A DNA stretch of 64,000 bases. Source: Pelagibacteraceae bacterium (GTDB lineage: Bacteria > Pseudomonadota > Alphaproteobacteria > Pelagibacterales > Pelagibacteraceae). The position numbers and the translations under genes were made by a program. The DNA is taken from NCBI GenBank assembly GCA_008638225.1, contig VTPP01000002.1, positions 1 to 64,000 of the forward strand, given 5' to 3'. Shown in pieces: positions 38,905-44,113 of this stretch (the stretch's first letter is position 1; the number at the start of each line of letters is the position of its first letter). Below the pieces are notes generated by a model. It saw nothing but the letters and a program-made list of their open reading frames with translations. It was not told the DNA's origin and ran no database searches.

Positions 38905-39701
38905 AAAAAATTTTTTATTATTTTTTCTCTTCTATATTCGTATCTTATGTAATTCTAGTTTTGTGTATGTTTATTTTTCAAAGAAGTTTGATGTATAGAC
39001 CAGATATTAATAACCATGATTTGACTCCAATTACATTTCAATTTGAAAAAATAAAAATACCATCTGGTGATCGTATTGAGCTCAATTCTTGGTTTTCTTT
39101 TAAAGATTCTAAAAAAAAAACTTTAGTTTTTTTTCATGGTAACGCAGGAAATCTCAGAAACCGTATTTATAAACTTAATGAGATTGATAAAATGAATGTA
39201 AATTTTTTACTAATTTCATGGAGGGGTTTTAGCAATAATCTTGGAAAACCAACTGAAGAAGGCTTGTACGAAGATGCCGCAAGTGCAATTAGATGGTTAG
39301 AAAAAAGAAATATAAAAAAATCAGATATTATTTTATATGGCGAATCTTTAGGTACAGGTGTTGCACTTGAACTAGCTAAAACAGATATTTATGCAGGTGT
39401 AATTTTAGAATCTCCCTATACCTCAATGGTTGATATGGCGGAAATATTATATCCCTATTTACCAGTTAGTATTTTATTAAAAGATCGATATGTGTCGATT
39501 GAAAAAATTAAAGAAAATAAATCTCCTATTTTAGTTATGCACGGAAAAATGGATACGCTTGTGCCTTTTTTTATGGGTAAGAAAATATATGAGGAGGCCA
39601 ATAATCCAAAATATTCTTATTTTCCAAACGGCAGTGGACATATGATGCGCTACGACCTTTATTTGGTAGATGCTTTACAAAAATTTATTAACTCTCTTTA
39701 G
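38901..39701 (+). CDS. Alpha/beta hydrolase, membrane-anchored (Bem46/ABHD13-like)
   Basis: This 266-residue protein has an N-terminal membrane anchor (about 5-27) followed by an alpha/beta hydrolase domain. It carries FFHGNAGNLRNR (oxyanion region), the nucleophile elbow LYGESLGTGVALELA, the catalytic Asp in MHGKMDTLVPFFMG and the His in NGSGHMMRYD. This arrangement fits the Bem46/YfhR-type serine hydrolases of unknown substrate. Its end overlaps the convergent ftsY by 4 bases. Confidence 0.88.
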   Translation: MKKIFYYFFSSIFVSYVILVLCMFIFQRSLMYRPDINNHDLTPITFQFEKIKIPSGDRIELNSWFSFKDSKKKTLVFFHGNAGNLRNRIYKLNEIDKMNVNFLLISWRGFSNNLGKPTEEGLYEDAASAIRWLEKRNIKKSDIILYGESLGTGVALELAKTDIYAGVILESPYTSMVDMAEILYPYLPVSILLKDRYVSIEKIKENKSPILVMHGKMDTLVPFFMGKKIYEEANNPKYSYFPNGSGHMMRYDLYLVDALQKFINSL

Positions 39702-40612
39702 AGATCTTTTATTAGGGCCTGGCTATATTCTTCCGCAATAAACTGATTAAGATCATGTTCTTTTTCACCAATACCAATTGCAACAATTGGTATTTTAAAA
39801 CGATCAGCAATAGCTACTAATATGCCGCCTTTGGCGGTACCATCTAATTTAGTCATAATAATCCCGGTGATAGAAGTGATTTTTTGAAATTCTTCTATCT
39901 GTGTAACAGCGTTTTGTCCCGTTGTTGCATCTAAAACAATCCATGTTTCTTGGGGAGCATTAGGATCAATTTTTTTTATTACTCTTATAATTTTTGCAAA
40001 CTCCTCCATTAAATTTTTTTTATTATGAAGTCTTCCTGCAGTATCAATAACACATATGTCTTTGCCATTATTTTTAGCGTATTCAACTGTTTTAAAGGCA
40101 ACAGAAGCTGGATCCGATCCAACTTCAGACTGGATCATGTCGGTATTGTTTCTATCGCACCATATTTTTAATTGATCAATAGCCGCGGCCCTAAAGGTAT
40201 CTGCCGCACCAATCACAACCTTTTTATTATTTTCTTTAAATAATTTGCATAACTTTCCAATAGTTGTTGTTTTTCCAGTTCCATTCACACCGCATATAAT
40301 GATTGTTTGGAGCATAGCTTCGCTGCTAATAATATTTTTTTCTAAAGGTTTTAAAATTTTAGATATTTCTTCAGAAAATATCTTATAAAAATTGTCTTTT
40401 TTTAGCTCCTCTTCAGAAAATTTTTTACTAGCCAGCAAGGATTTAAACTTTTGTGAAACATGTACACCAAAATCTGCTTGAATCATAAAATCTTCAATTT
40501 CATTTAACAAAACGTCATTAGGTTTTGTTTTGGTGAAAATATTAGAAATACCTTCTGATAAATTTCTCGAAGATTTAAACAAACCTTCTTTTAAATTATT
40601 AAAAAAACCCAT
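39698..40612 (-). CDS. ftsY: Signal recognition particle receptor FtsY
   Basis: FtsY is the SRP receptor GTPase that docks Ffh-ribosome complexes at the membrane. The 304-residue protein is a short NG-domain form: N domain about 1-95, then the P-loop GVNGTGKTTTIGKL (108-121), GAADTFRAAAIDQLKIW, VIDTAGRLHNKKNLMEEF, TKLDGTAKGGILVAIADRFKIPI and IGIGEKEHDLNQF. The acidic A domain of E. coli FtsY is missing, as usual in alphaproteobacteria. It follows dapF (4-base gap), and ffh is divergent just beyond. Confidence 0.97.
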   Translation of the reverse strand: MGFFNNLKEGLFKSSRNLSEGISNIFTKTKPNDVLLNEIEDFMIQADFGVHVSQKFKSLLASKKFSEEELKKDNFYKIFSEEISKILKPLEKNIISSEAMLQTIIICGVNGTGKTTTIGKLCKLFKENNKKVVIGAADTFRAAAIDQLKIWCDRNNTDMIQSEVGSDPASVAFKTVEYAKNNGKDICVIDTAGRLHNKKNLMEEFAKIIRVIKKIDPNAPQETWIVLDATTGQNAVTQIEEFQKITSITGIIMTKLDGTAKGGILVAIADRFKIPIVAIGIGEKEHDLNQFIAEEYSQALIKDL

Positions 40613-41429: not shown

Positions 41430-41488
41430 AGCTTTTACTATTACCCCAGTTTCCTTGACTTTTAAATTGTTACTATATAGCCTCAGGG

Positions 41489-41590
41489 CACTTCCACAAT
41501 TTATTACAATTTTGTGGTGTCCTCTTTAGAGGAGATCAACACTAGTCAGCGAGAATTCGCCCACTAGTGCGATTGTTGTTGGAAGAAGGA
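41489..41590 (+). promoter_or_regulatory. Structured leader of ffh with possible RBS-sequestering helix
   Basis: Within the 169 bases before ffh there are three hairpins: CCACAA/TTGTGG (41494-41499 with 41512-41517), CCTC/GAGG (41521-41524 with 41529-41532) and a two-level stem CACTAGT/ACTAGTG (41540-41546 with 41563-41569) enclosing GCGA/TCGC. CTTCC (41491-41495) is also complementary to GGAAG (41581-41585), the start of the GGAAGAAGG ribosome-binding site. The first hairpin and the RBS helix share bases and are mutually exclusive. No known riboswitch class was recognised. Confidence 0.5.
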
Positions 41591-41598
41591 AAAAAAAT

Positions 41599-42960
41599 AT
41601 GTTTGAAAGTTTAACAGATAAAATTGAAAGTGCTTTCTCTTTTTTTAATCGGATTACCCGATTAGATGAAAAACAAGCCGATGAAGGATTAAGAAAAATT
41701 AGACAAGCTTTACTAGAGTCGGATGTATCACTTTCTGTCGCAAAAGACTTTATTAATAATGTTAAACCAAAAATTATTGGTCAGGAAGTTTTAAAATCAG
41801 TCACTCCAGGACAGATGATAGTCAAAATAGTTTTTGACGAATTAGTGAATATATTAGGAAGTGAACAAAAAGAAATTAATTTAAATGCAGTACCACCTGT
41901 AAAAATTTTAATTGTAGGTTTGCAAGGATCAGGAAAAACTACAACTACTGCAAAACTAGCAAAATATTTAGAGAAACATTATTCAAAAAAAAGCATGTTA
42001 GTCAGTTTAGATGTTTATAGGCCCGCCGCTCAAAAACAATTAGAAATTCTGGGAGAAAAAAATGCAATTAAGACACTTCCTATTATGGAAGGCCAATTTC
42101 CTCTAGAAATTTCAAAAAGAGCAATAAATGCGGCATCCTTATCTGGAGAAGACATTATTATTTTTGATACTGCCGGACGAACTCAAATTGATCAGCAAAT
42201 GATGATGGAATTAAAACAATTAGAAAATGATATTAAGCCTACAGAAATTATATTGGTTGCCGATTCTTTGACAGGACAGGATGCAGTCAATATTGCCACT
42301 GAATTTAAAAAAACAGTTTCCTTAAGTTCAATCATACTTACCCGTATAGATGGAGATGGTAAGGGTGGTGCTGCATTAAGTATGAAAGCAGTTACAGGTT
42401 GCCCAATAAAGTTTTTGGGGATGGGCGAAGGCATCAATGAGCTAGAAGTATTTCACCCAGATCGAATTGCAAATAGAATACTTGGAATGGGAGATGTGGT
42501 CTCTCTCGTGGAAAAAGTCTCTGAAGGTCTGGAGCAAGAAAAAATTGATGAATTAGAAGAAAATTTTAAAAAAGGAAGCTTTACTTTTAATGATTATTTA
42601 AAGCAAATTAGACAAATGAAAAAAGTAGGGGGCATGAGCGGAGTGCTAAGTATGCTTCCAGGTGTATCTAAAATAAAAAAACAGATTGATGAATCTAATT
42701 TAGACGAAAGCATACTTGCAAAACAGGAGGCAATTATTTTGTCTATGACTGGAAAAGAAAGAGACAATCCGAAAGTGATTGATGGGTCGAGAAAAAAAAG
42801 AATTGCGAATGGATCGGGAACGGACATCTCAATGGTAAACAAGCTTCTAAAGCAACATAAAATGATGACAACGATGATGAAAAGAATGTCAAATGGCGGT
42901 AGAGGCGCTCTAGATGGAATGGATCAGATTCCTCCAGAGTTTTTAAACAACTTAAAATGA
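41599..42960 (+). CDS. ffh: Signal recognition particle protein Ffh
   Basis: Ffh binds signal peptides of nascent membrane proteins and the 4.5S RNA. The 453-residue protein has N, G and M domains: [16 protein letters not shown] (106-121), [39 protein letters not shown] and, in the M domain, [20 protein letters not shown] and [30 protein letters not shown] with the methionine-rich groove and RNA-binding SGS-like motif. A strong RBS ends about 9 bases before the ATG. rpsP follows 10 bases after the stop. Confidence 0.97.
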
Positions 42961-42970
42961 AAGGAAGCAA

Positions 42971-43417
42971 ATGTTAAAAATAAGAATGTCTAGAGGGGGA
43001 GCTAAAAAAAGACCCTTCTATAAAATAGTAGTAGCAGATTCTCGAAGGCCAAGAGATGGAAAATTTATTGAGAAAGTTGGATTTTTTAATCCTCTATTAC
43101 CTAAAGATAAGACTGAAAGATTAAGTCTTGATATTGAAAGAATTAAGTATTGGCTAGGTCAGGGAGCTCAACCTTCAGAGAGAATTGCAAGATTTTTAGG
43201 AGAGGCAAAACTTATTCCTATGCCAAAACAAAGAAACAACCCAATTAAGGCGTTACCAAAAAAGAAAGCCCAGGAAAAACTAAAAAAAGCTGAAGATGCT
43301 AAAAAAACAGCGGAAGCAGCAGCAGCTCAACCTGCGCCAGCAGAGGTAGCACCAGCAGAAACTGCACCAGTAGCCGAATCTGCTCCAGTGGAGGAAATTA
43401 AAGAGGAGAACCAATAA
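42971..43417 (+). CDS. rpsP: 30S ribosomal protein S16 with low-complexity tail
   Basis: S16 is a small-subunit assembly protein. Residues 1 to about 85 are canonical ([43 protein letters not shown], then [21 protein letters not shown]). The 148-residue length is larger than usual because of a C-terminal tail: a Lys/Ala-rich stretch (about 95-115), then an Ala/Pro/Glu-rich stretch to the end. Such tails are seen in several alphaproteobacteria. trmD follows after 6 bases; rimM, usually between them, is absent. Confidence 0.97.
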
Positions 43418-43423
43418 ATCTTA

Positions 43424-44113
43424 ATGTGGTCAGCAAAAATATTTACACTGTACCCAGAGTTCTTTCCTGGTTTGCTTGATATGGGAATTTATAAGAGAGC
43501 CAGAGAAAAAAATATTTGGAAACTAGATATTGTAAATATAAGAGATTATGCTTTAGATAAGCATGGGTCAGTTGATGACAAACCTTTTGGTGGTGGAAGA
43601 GGAATGTTAATGCGTGCAGATGTTACTGATAATTGTTTAATAAATAATCAAAATACTAATCCTACTATTTATCTTTCTCCTAAAGGCAAAACTTTAAACC
43701 AAGATATGGTAAAAAATTTTTCTTTGCAAAATGGGTTAAATATTTTGTGTGGTCATTTCGAAGGAGTTGATCAAAGAGTAATAGAAAAAAACAATATTGA
43801 AGAAATAAGCATAGGTGATTATGTTTTATCAGGAGGTGAGACAGCGGCAACAGTTTTGTTAGATAGTGTTCTAAGACTTTTACCTGGCGTTTTAGGAGCA
43901 GAAGGATCTCTTCAAGAAGAAAGTTTTAACGATAATCTATTAGAATATCCTCAGTATACTCAGCCAAGAGAATGGGAGGGGAAAAAAGTTCCAGACGTTC
44001 TATTATCGGGAAACCATGCGGAAATAAAGCACTGGCGTTTAGAACAGTCCAGGAGTATAACACAGCGCCTAAGACCAGATATGTGGCAAAAGTATAATAA
44101 AAACAAAAATTAG
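43424..44113 (+). CDS. trmD: tRNA (guanine-N1)-methyltransferase TrmD
   Basis: TrmD methylates G37 of tRNAs with a G at position 36, using SAM, and prevents +1 frameshifting. The 229-residue trefoil-knot protein has [63 protein letters not shown] and [26 protein letters not shown]. It lies between rpsP and rplS with gaps of 6 and 1 bases. Confidence 0.97.

Follow-up and report, generated by a model that had tools for sequence, protein, structure and literature searches.

A three-hairpin form of the ffh motif in SAR11 and its retention before rpsP in alphaproteobacteria in which Ffh was not detected: a possible leader of the whole operon

The region preceding the ffh gene of SAR11 bacteria raises a question that its gene context alone seems to answer too easily: What does the structured RNA found there do, and is it Ffh that it serves? 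We have addressed this question with a stretch of 64,000 nucleotides of a Pelagibacteraceae bacterium (contig VTPP01000002.1, positions 1 to 64,000 of the forward strand), which is called here the window. In the window, the gap between dapF on the minus strand and ffh on the plus strand spans positions 41430-41598, that is 169 nt. Then follow, all on the plus strand, ffh (41599-42960, an ORF of 453 amino acids matching named SAR11 Ffh loci), rpsP for ribosomal protein S16, the second gene of the operon (42971-43417, an ORF that is also the syntenic gene in relatives), trmD (43424-44113) and rplS for ribosomal protein L19 (44115-44579), the latter two being ORFs with syntenic tblastn matches. 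The spacing between rpsP and trmD is only 6 nt (43417-43424), leaving no rimM between them; many other alphaproteobacteria have a rimM-sized gap at this place. At the edge of the window, positions 1-49 form the 3' part of a truncated tRNA gene (Rfam, 29.9 bits), and ARAGORN listed no tRNA in the window.

A previous reading of the window, made from the sequence only, had noted three clean hairpins in the 169-nt gap, one of them with a two-level stem, and these hairpins are indeed present, exceed chance expectation and covary. As a whole, the leader stretch of 181 nt folds better than dinucleotide shuffles of itself (z -3.24, with 2 of 200 shuffles as good). Along the plus strand, hairpin 1 occupies 41494-41517, its arms CCACAA and TTGTGG lying at 41494-41499 and 41512-41517; hairpin 2 (TCCTC-TTTA-GAGGA) occupies 41520-41533; hairpin 3, in which CACTAGT and ACTAGTG surround GCGA and TCGC with an internal loop of CA opposite CC, lies at 41540-41569. 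In an alignment of 68 distinct SAR11 leaders, 99.4% of the cells of the three stems taken together hold standard pairs, and nine pairs, in 91 cells, have changed on both sides, a result that none of 500 shuffles equalled. Taken singly, the stems show 98.1% paired cells and covariation for hairpin 1, 100% for hairpin 2, all five pairs of which have changed on both sides, and 100% for hairpin 3. When the partner columns are slid by 1-3 positions, pairing falls to 39-49%. A further test, which compares duplexes of own arms with duplexes of swapped arms at the level of genera and does not depend on alignment columns, gives z values of -3.8, -5.6 and -3.7 for hairpins 1, 2 and 3, respectively. The shuffle controls leave shared ancestry in; the control with slid partners and the test at the level of genera agree with them in direction. 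The stems are conserved among SAR11 leaders, while the loops and much of the stem sequence vary.

The core of this structure is already known, being a catalogued element, the ffh motif. Searches with Infernal identify positions 41525-41577 on the plus strand, comprising hairpin 3 and the 3' half of hairpin 2, as Rfam RF01793 "ffh" (57 bits, E 3.4e-8, covering the full model from 1 to 52), well beyond the gathering cut-off of 35 bits. The motif was described from SAR11 as a single bulged hairpin preceding ffh, with more than 600 metagenomic representatives and a widespread distribution in Alphaproteobacteria; its function was reported as unknown, and a regulation of ffh was held possible (Meyer et al. 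2009, PMC2704228). Our leader shares with it the gene context, the two-level hairpin with conserved C's in the internal loop and the SAR11 group, while adding to the published single hairpin two covarying hairpins upstream, a promoter-like sequence of constant spacing and, downstream, TTGG/TTTGG, besides heading rpsP in a family that has no ffh, as discussed below. From the covariation just presented, hairpins 1 and 2 are parts of the same element, which is then a three-hairpin leader larger than the Rfam model. Mimicry of the motif at other sites was considered and set aside: in four genomes searched at E up to 10, there was no second good match to RF01793, with just two weak ones of 18-20 bits. 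The leader matched no other Rfam family, known riboswitch families included, and the RNA partner of the ffh product, SRP RNA (4.5S RNA, RF00169), gave no match at the leader locus; the SRP RNA of the window genome lies elsewhere (G000:C14:14984-15081).

Of the 118 genomes in the family of the window, 101 carry RF01793, as do 112 of the 387 genomes of its class. Outside SAR11, and setting aside the family f40 presented below, ffh lies directly 3' of the motif in 54 of the 54 loci examined, followed by rpsP in 53. The one exception (G308:C222, L229) has the motif and ffh, with no rpsP within 7 kb 3' of ffh.

Which sequences accompany the hairpins? Upstream, a putative -35 box, TTGACT (41455-41460), keeps a constant spacing to hairpin 1 in practically all SAR11 leaders and recurs in the family f40; it is followed after a spacer of 17 nt by a putative -10 box, TAGCCT (41478-41483), which has its counterpart in a TAGTTT-like hexamer in relatives and in CTATAT in f40. 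A generic promoter scan gave this TTGACT promoter no score. Transcription would start from these boxes at about 41489-41491, at the foot of hairpin 1. Downstream, a TTGG element (41579-41582, plus strand) occupies positions 10-13 after hairpin 3, that is, after a gap of 9 nt; 33 of the 36 non-SAR11 leaders have TTGG or TTTG within a distance of 26 nt, as against 24% of shuffled tails, and in fixed register with hairpin 3, while TTGG or CTGG is present in 49 of the 68 SAR11 leaders. The distance from this element to the start codon is variable; in the window, ffh starts 29 nt downstream of hairpin 3. Within the internal loop of hairpin 3, the columns of C do not vary among SAR11 leaders, and CA/CC is the commonest combination, present in 35 of 62 loci of the class and f40, a few of which are mislocated. 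The second position of this loop (41547-41548 and 41561-41562 in the window) is A/C, G/T, C/G, T/A or A/A depending on the lineage, with the C's nearly invariant across the class. We do not claim a covarying pair here: several lineages show the series A.C, G.U, C-G and U-A, but in f40 the A faces A, C or G. A pseudoknot between the loop C's and TTGG, judged by eye, was likewise set aside, being unsupported where the C's change.

These features bear on two rival explanations. The leader could be a constitutive 5' structure, its terminal and downstream hairpins protecting the mRNA of the operon or aiding ribosome loading without a ligand; hairpin 1 at the predicted start site fits this, as do stems that are conserved while their loops and much of their sequence vary, and so does the retention of the leader after the loss of ffh. 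However, the unpaired letters conserved throughout the class, namely, the loop C's of hairpin 3 and TTGG/TTTGG, exceed what a generic hairpin would need, and we consider this explanation rather unlikely. Alternatively, termination or processing after hairpin 3 could release a small RNA acting in trans. The leader has its own promoter-like sequence, many relatives carry a T-rich stretch 3' of hairpin 3, and the RNA itself is seen, both among the small RNAs expressed in Bartonella, where RNA-seq detected the ffh leader (PMC7717549), and in marine metatranscriptomes (PMC2704228). Yet no intrinsic terminator was scored at hairpin 3 or elsewhere in the window, the T content after hairpin 3 is variable, and in the loci examined the element always heads this one operon; a small RNA, too, seems an unlikely principal function, and slightly more so.

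A different proposal came from the sequence-only reading, according to which CTTCC may pair either within hairpin 1 or with GGAAG downstream, hiding in the latter case the ribosome-binding site of ffh in the manner of a translational switch. Both sequences are there, CTTCC at 41491-41495 and GGAAG at 41581-41585 on the plus strand, but GGAAG is not the ribosome-binding site: the likely Shine-Dalgarno core is AAGGA (41586-41590), immediately downstream of it and 8 nt before the ATG, and in the predicted ensemble with the long-range helix this core is 95-99% unpaired. Only 10 of the 68 SAR11 ffh leaders have a Shine-Dalgarno-like tetramer near the start. Moreover, GGAAG lies partly within the conserved TTGG element, since the latter occupies 41579-41582. 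When related leaders are inspected for compensatory changes, as that reading had suggested, the three stems covary as reported above, but the CTTCC/GGAAG helix does not across SAR11: 71.8% of its cells are paired, double changes are fewer than in shuffles and 500 of 500 shuffles are as good, a column count that is weakened by a one-base shift in the genera g3 and g13. The genus-level duplex test gives z -1.9 (p about 0.05). The helix is strong only in g1, g3, g9, g10 and g13, with compensating changes in g3 (TATTCC/GGAATA) and g13 (AAATTCC/GGAATTT), whereas g2, g4, g5 and most of g7 form it weakly or not at all; furthermore, it coexists with hairpin 1 in several genera, including g3 and g10, where the two pairings should be alternatives if they formed a switch.

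It is true that in the window itself the prediction favours the long-range form over the three hairpins (-34.0 versus -30.2 kcal/mol), and that g3 and g13 carry compensating changes. However, in L015, a member of the same genus whose Ffh is 99.8% identical, the predicted fold lacks the helix. A translational riboswitch is recognized by an alternative pairing, conserved among relatives, in which the ribosome-binding site is covered; here we find no family-wide covariation and an open AAGGA, and on these two grounds the conserved switch was rejected, as a mechanism of very low probability. What stands of the proposal is a conserved, structured leader before ffh; what falls is the mutually exclusive pairing that would hide the ribosome-binding site. 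The CTTCC/GGAAG helix, restricted to some clades, is at most a lineage-specific extra that does not cover the Shine-Dalgarno sequence. A metabolite riboswitch is also unsupported, the leader matching no known riboswitch family.

If the leader is not a switch of this kind, could it be the site at which Ffh regulates its own synthesis? The evidence that bears most directly upon this possibility comes from f40, a family of 18 AT-rich alphaproteobacterial genomes in three genera (G341, G469, G156 and others; L168-L181, L196-L198). Fourteen of these 18 genomes carry the motif, each of them with rpsP as the first gene 3' of the leader; the order is dapF on the opposite strand, leader, rpsP, trmD, rplS and leuC, that is, the order found in the family of the window minus ffh. 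None of the 18 genomes has an SRP54-type GTPase domain of Ffh or FtsY over the cut-off, nor an Ffh M domain, the controls being positive in 14 of 14 cases for each; nor was SRP RNA found in any of the 18, with the same search positive in seven of seven other alphaproteobacteria, including the window genome. One weak match to PF00448 (G501, 20.5 bits over 41 residues) was discarded, the ORF reading by eye as nucleotidyltransferase- or APS-kinase-like rather than as an SRP GTPase. SecY is present in 14 of the 18 genomes and in six of the six most complete. Family f40 thus appears to live without the whole signal recognition particle (Ffh, FtsY and SRP RNA) while having SecY, and our literature search returned no report on point for the loss of SRP in such a lineage. 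In the window, ftsY (39698-40612) adjoins dapF; f40 retains dapF, and ftsY was found nowhere in its genomes.

In the f40 leader, hairpins 1 and 3 are 99% paired, with 16 cells changed on both sides and none of 500 shuffles as good. The leader has therefore been retained with covarying stems where neither Ffh nor SRP RNA was found, so selection on its structure persists, and therefore its general function cannot need Ffh. This contradicts, as a general function, the speculation of the previous reading that Ffh could keep its own amount in balance with 4.5S RNA by binding to its leader; the effect of such binding would be a repression of translation. A leader serving that balance should be confined to genomes that have both Ffh and SRP RNA, and f40 has kept it. 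The motif does precede ffh in all 54 of the non-SAR11 loci considered above and in SAR11, and Meyer et al. (PMC2704228) did contemplate ffh regulation, even if the same authors noted that the motif is unlike the SRP RNA site to which Ffh binds (PMC2704228). We have consequently rejected Ffh autoregulation as the general function, and find it quite improbable as an explanation of the element, while Ffh may still use the leader in other lineages, where autoregulation could hold as a lineage-specific addition. The position in f40 has to be read with care, too: once ffh is deleted the leader comes to lie beside rpsP by default, and its retention is a sign of continued selection, not of the identity of the product that is sensed.

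Which function would be common to all these lineages? We favour the view that this element, a member of RF01793, forms the 5' untranslated region of the ffh-rpsP-trmD-rplS operon and acts in cis, most likely through an autogenous mechanism involving S16 or L19; we give this view, drawn from comparison of sequences, roughly even credence. Transcription would begin at the base of hairpin 1. The leader would act in cis upon the whole operon, regulating or stabilising it by a route that involves neither Ffh nor SRP RNA. One of the proteins encoded by the genes retained downstream, with S16 as the first candidate and L19 as the second, would bind the leader, and its binding would lower expression of the operon, as in autogenous leaders of the ribosomal-protein type. 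This reading is favoured because rpsP-trmD-rplS remains downstream of the leader in almost every lineage examined, and because ribosomal-protein operons are well known for structured leaders, a type to which a structured 5' leader of an operon encoding S16 and L19 conforms. It is favoured also because an S16 r-leader candidate precedes rpsP in Flavobacteria (PMC7247131), and the regulation of the trmD operon of Escherichia coli is reported as unknown (PMC10931766). The flavobacterial candidate resembles ours in being a structured leader directly before rpsP, as in f40, with a proposed sensing of S16, but it belongs to a different phylum, and the likeness is one of gene position. It is likewise from gene position that S16 or L19 is possibly the ligand. 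All that is said here of the leader is comparative, and most of these observations would also agree with a 5' structure that only stabilises and has no ligand, or with a small RNA derived from the leader.

Should the S16/L19 reading hold, the ffh motif would be misnamed. It would then head the ffh-rpsP-(rimM)-trmD-rplS operon of alphaproteobacteria as a ribosomal-protein leader with three hairpins and TTGG, sensing S16 (or L19) and persisting in one lineage after the loss of SRP; we put this forward only tentatively, judging it somewhat more likely to be wrong than right. What is new here, on the evidence of aligned leaders, is the covariation of hairpins 1 and 2 across SAR11, the putative promoter at fixed distance and the TTGG/TTTGG element, and the three hairpins together with TTGG provide a fuller model than the current Rfam entry. 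The survival of the RNA and of its selected base pairs without Ffh, FtsY and SRP RNA constitutes a new constraint, which we have not found in the literature searched. In those genomes the RNA heads a ribosomal-protein operon. Its survival there shifts the search for a ligand from Ffh to S16 or L19, or else to a ligand-free role, and it is probably the operon as a whole, not Ffh, that the leader serves.
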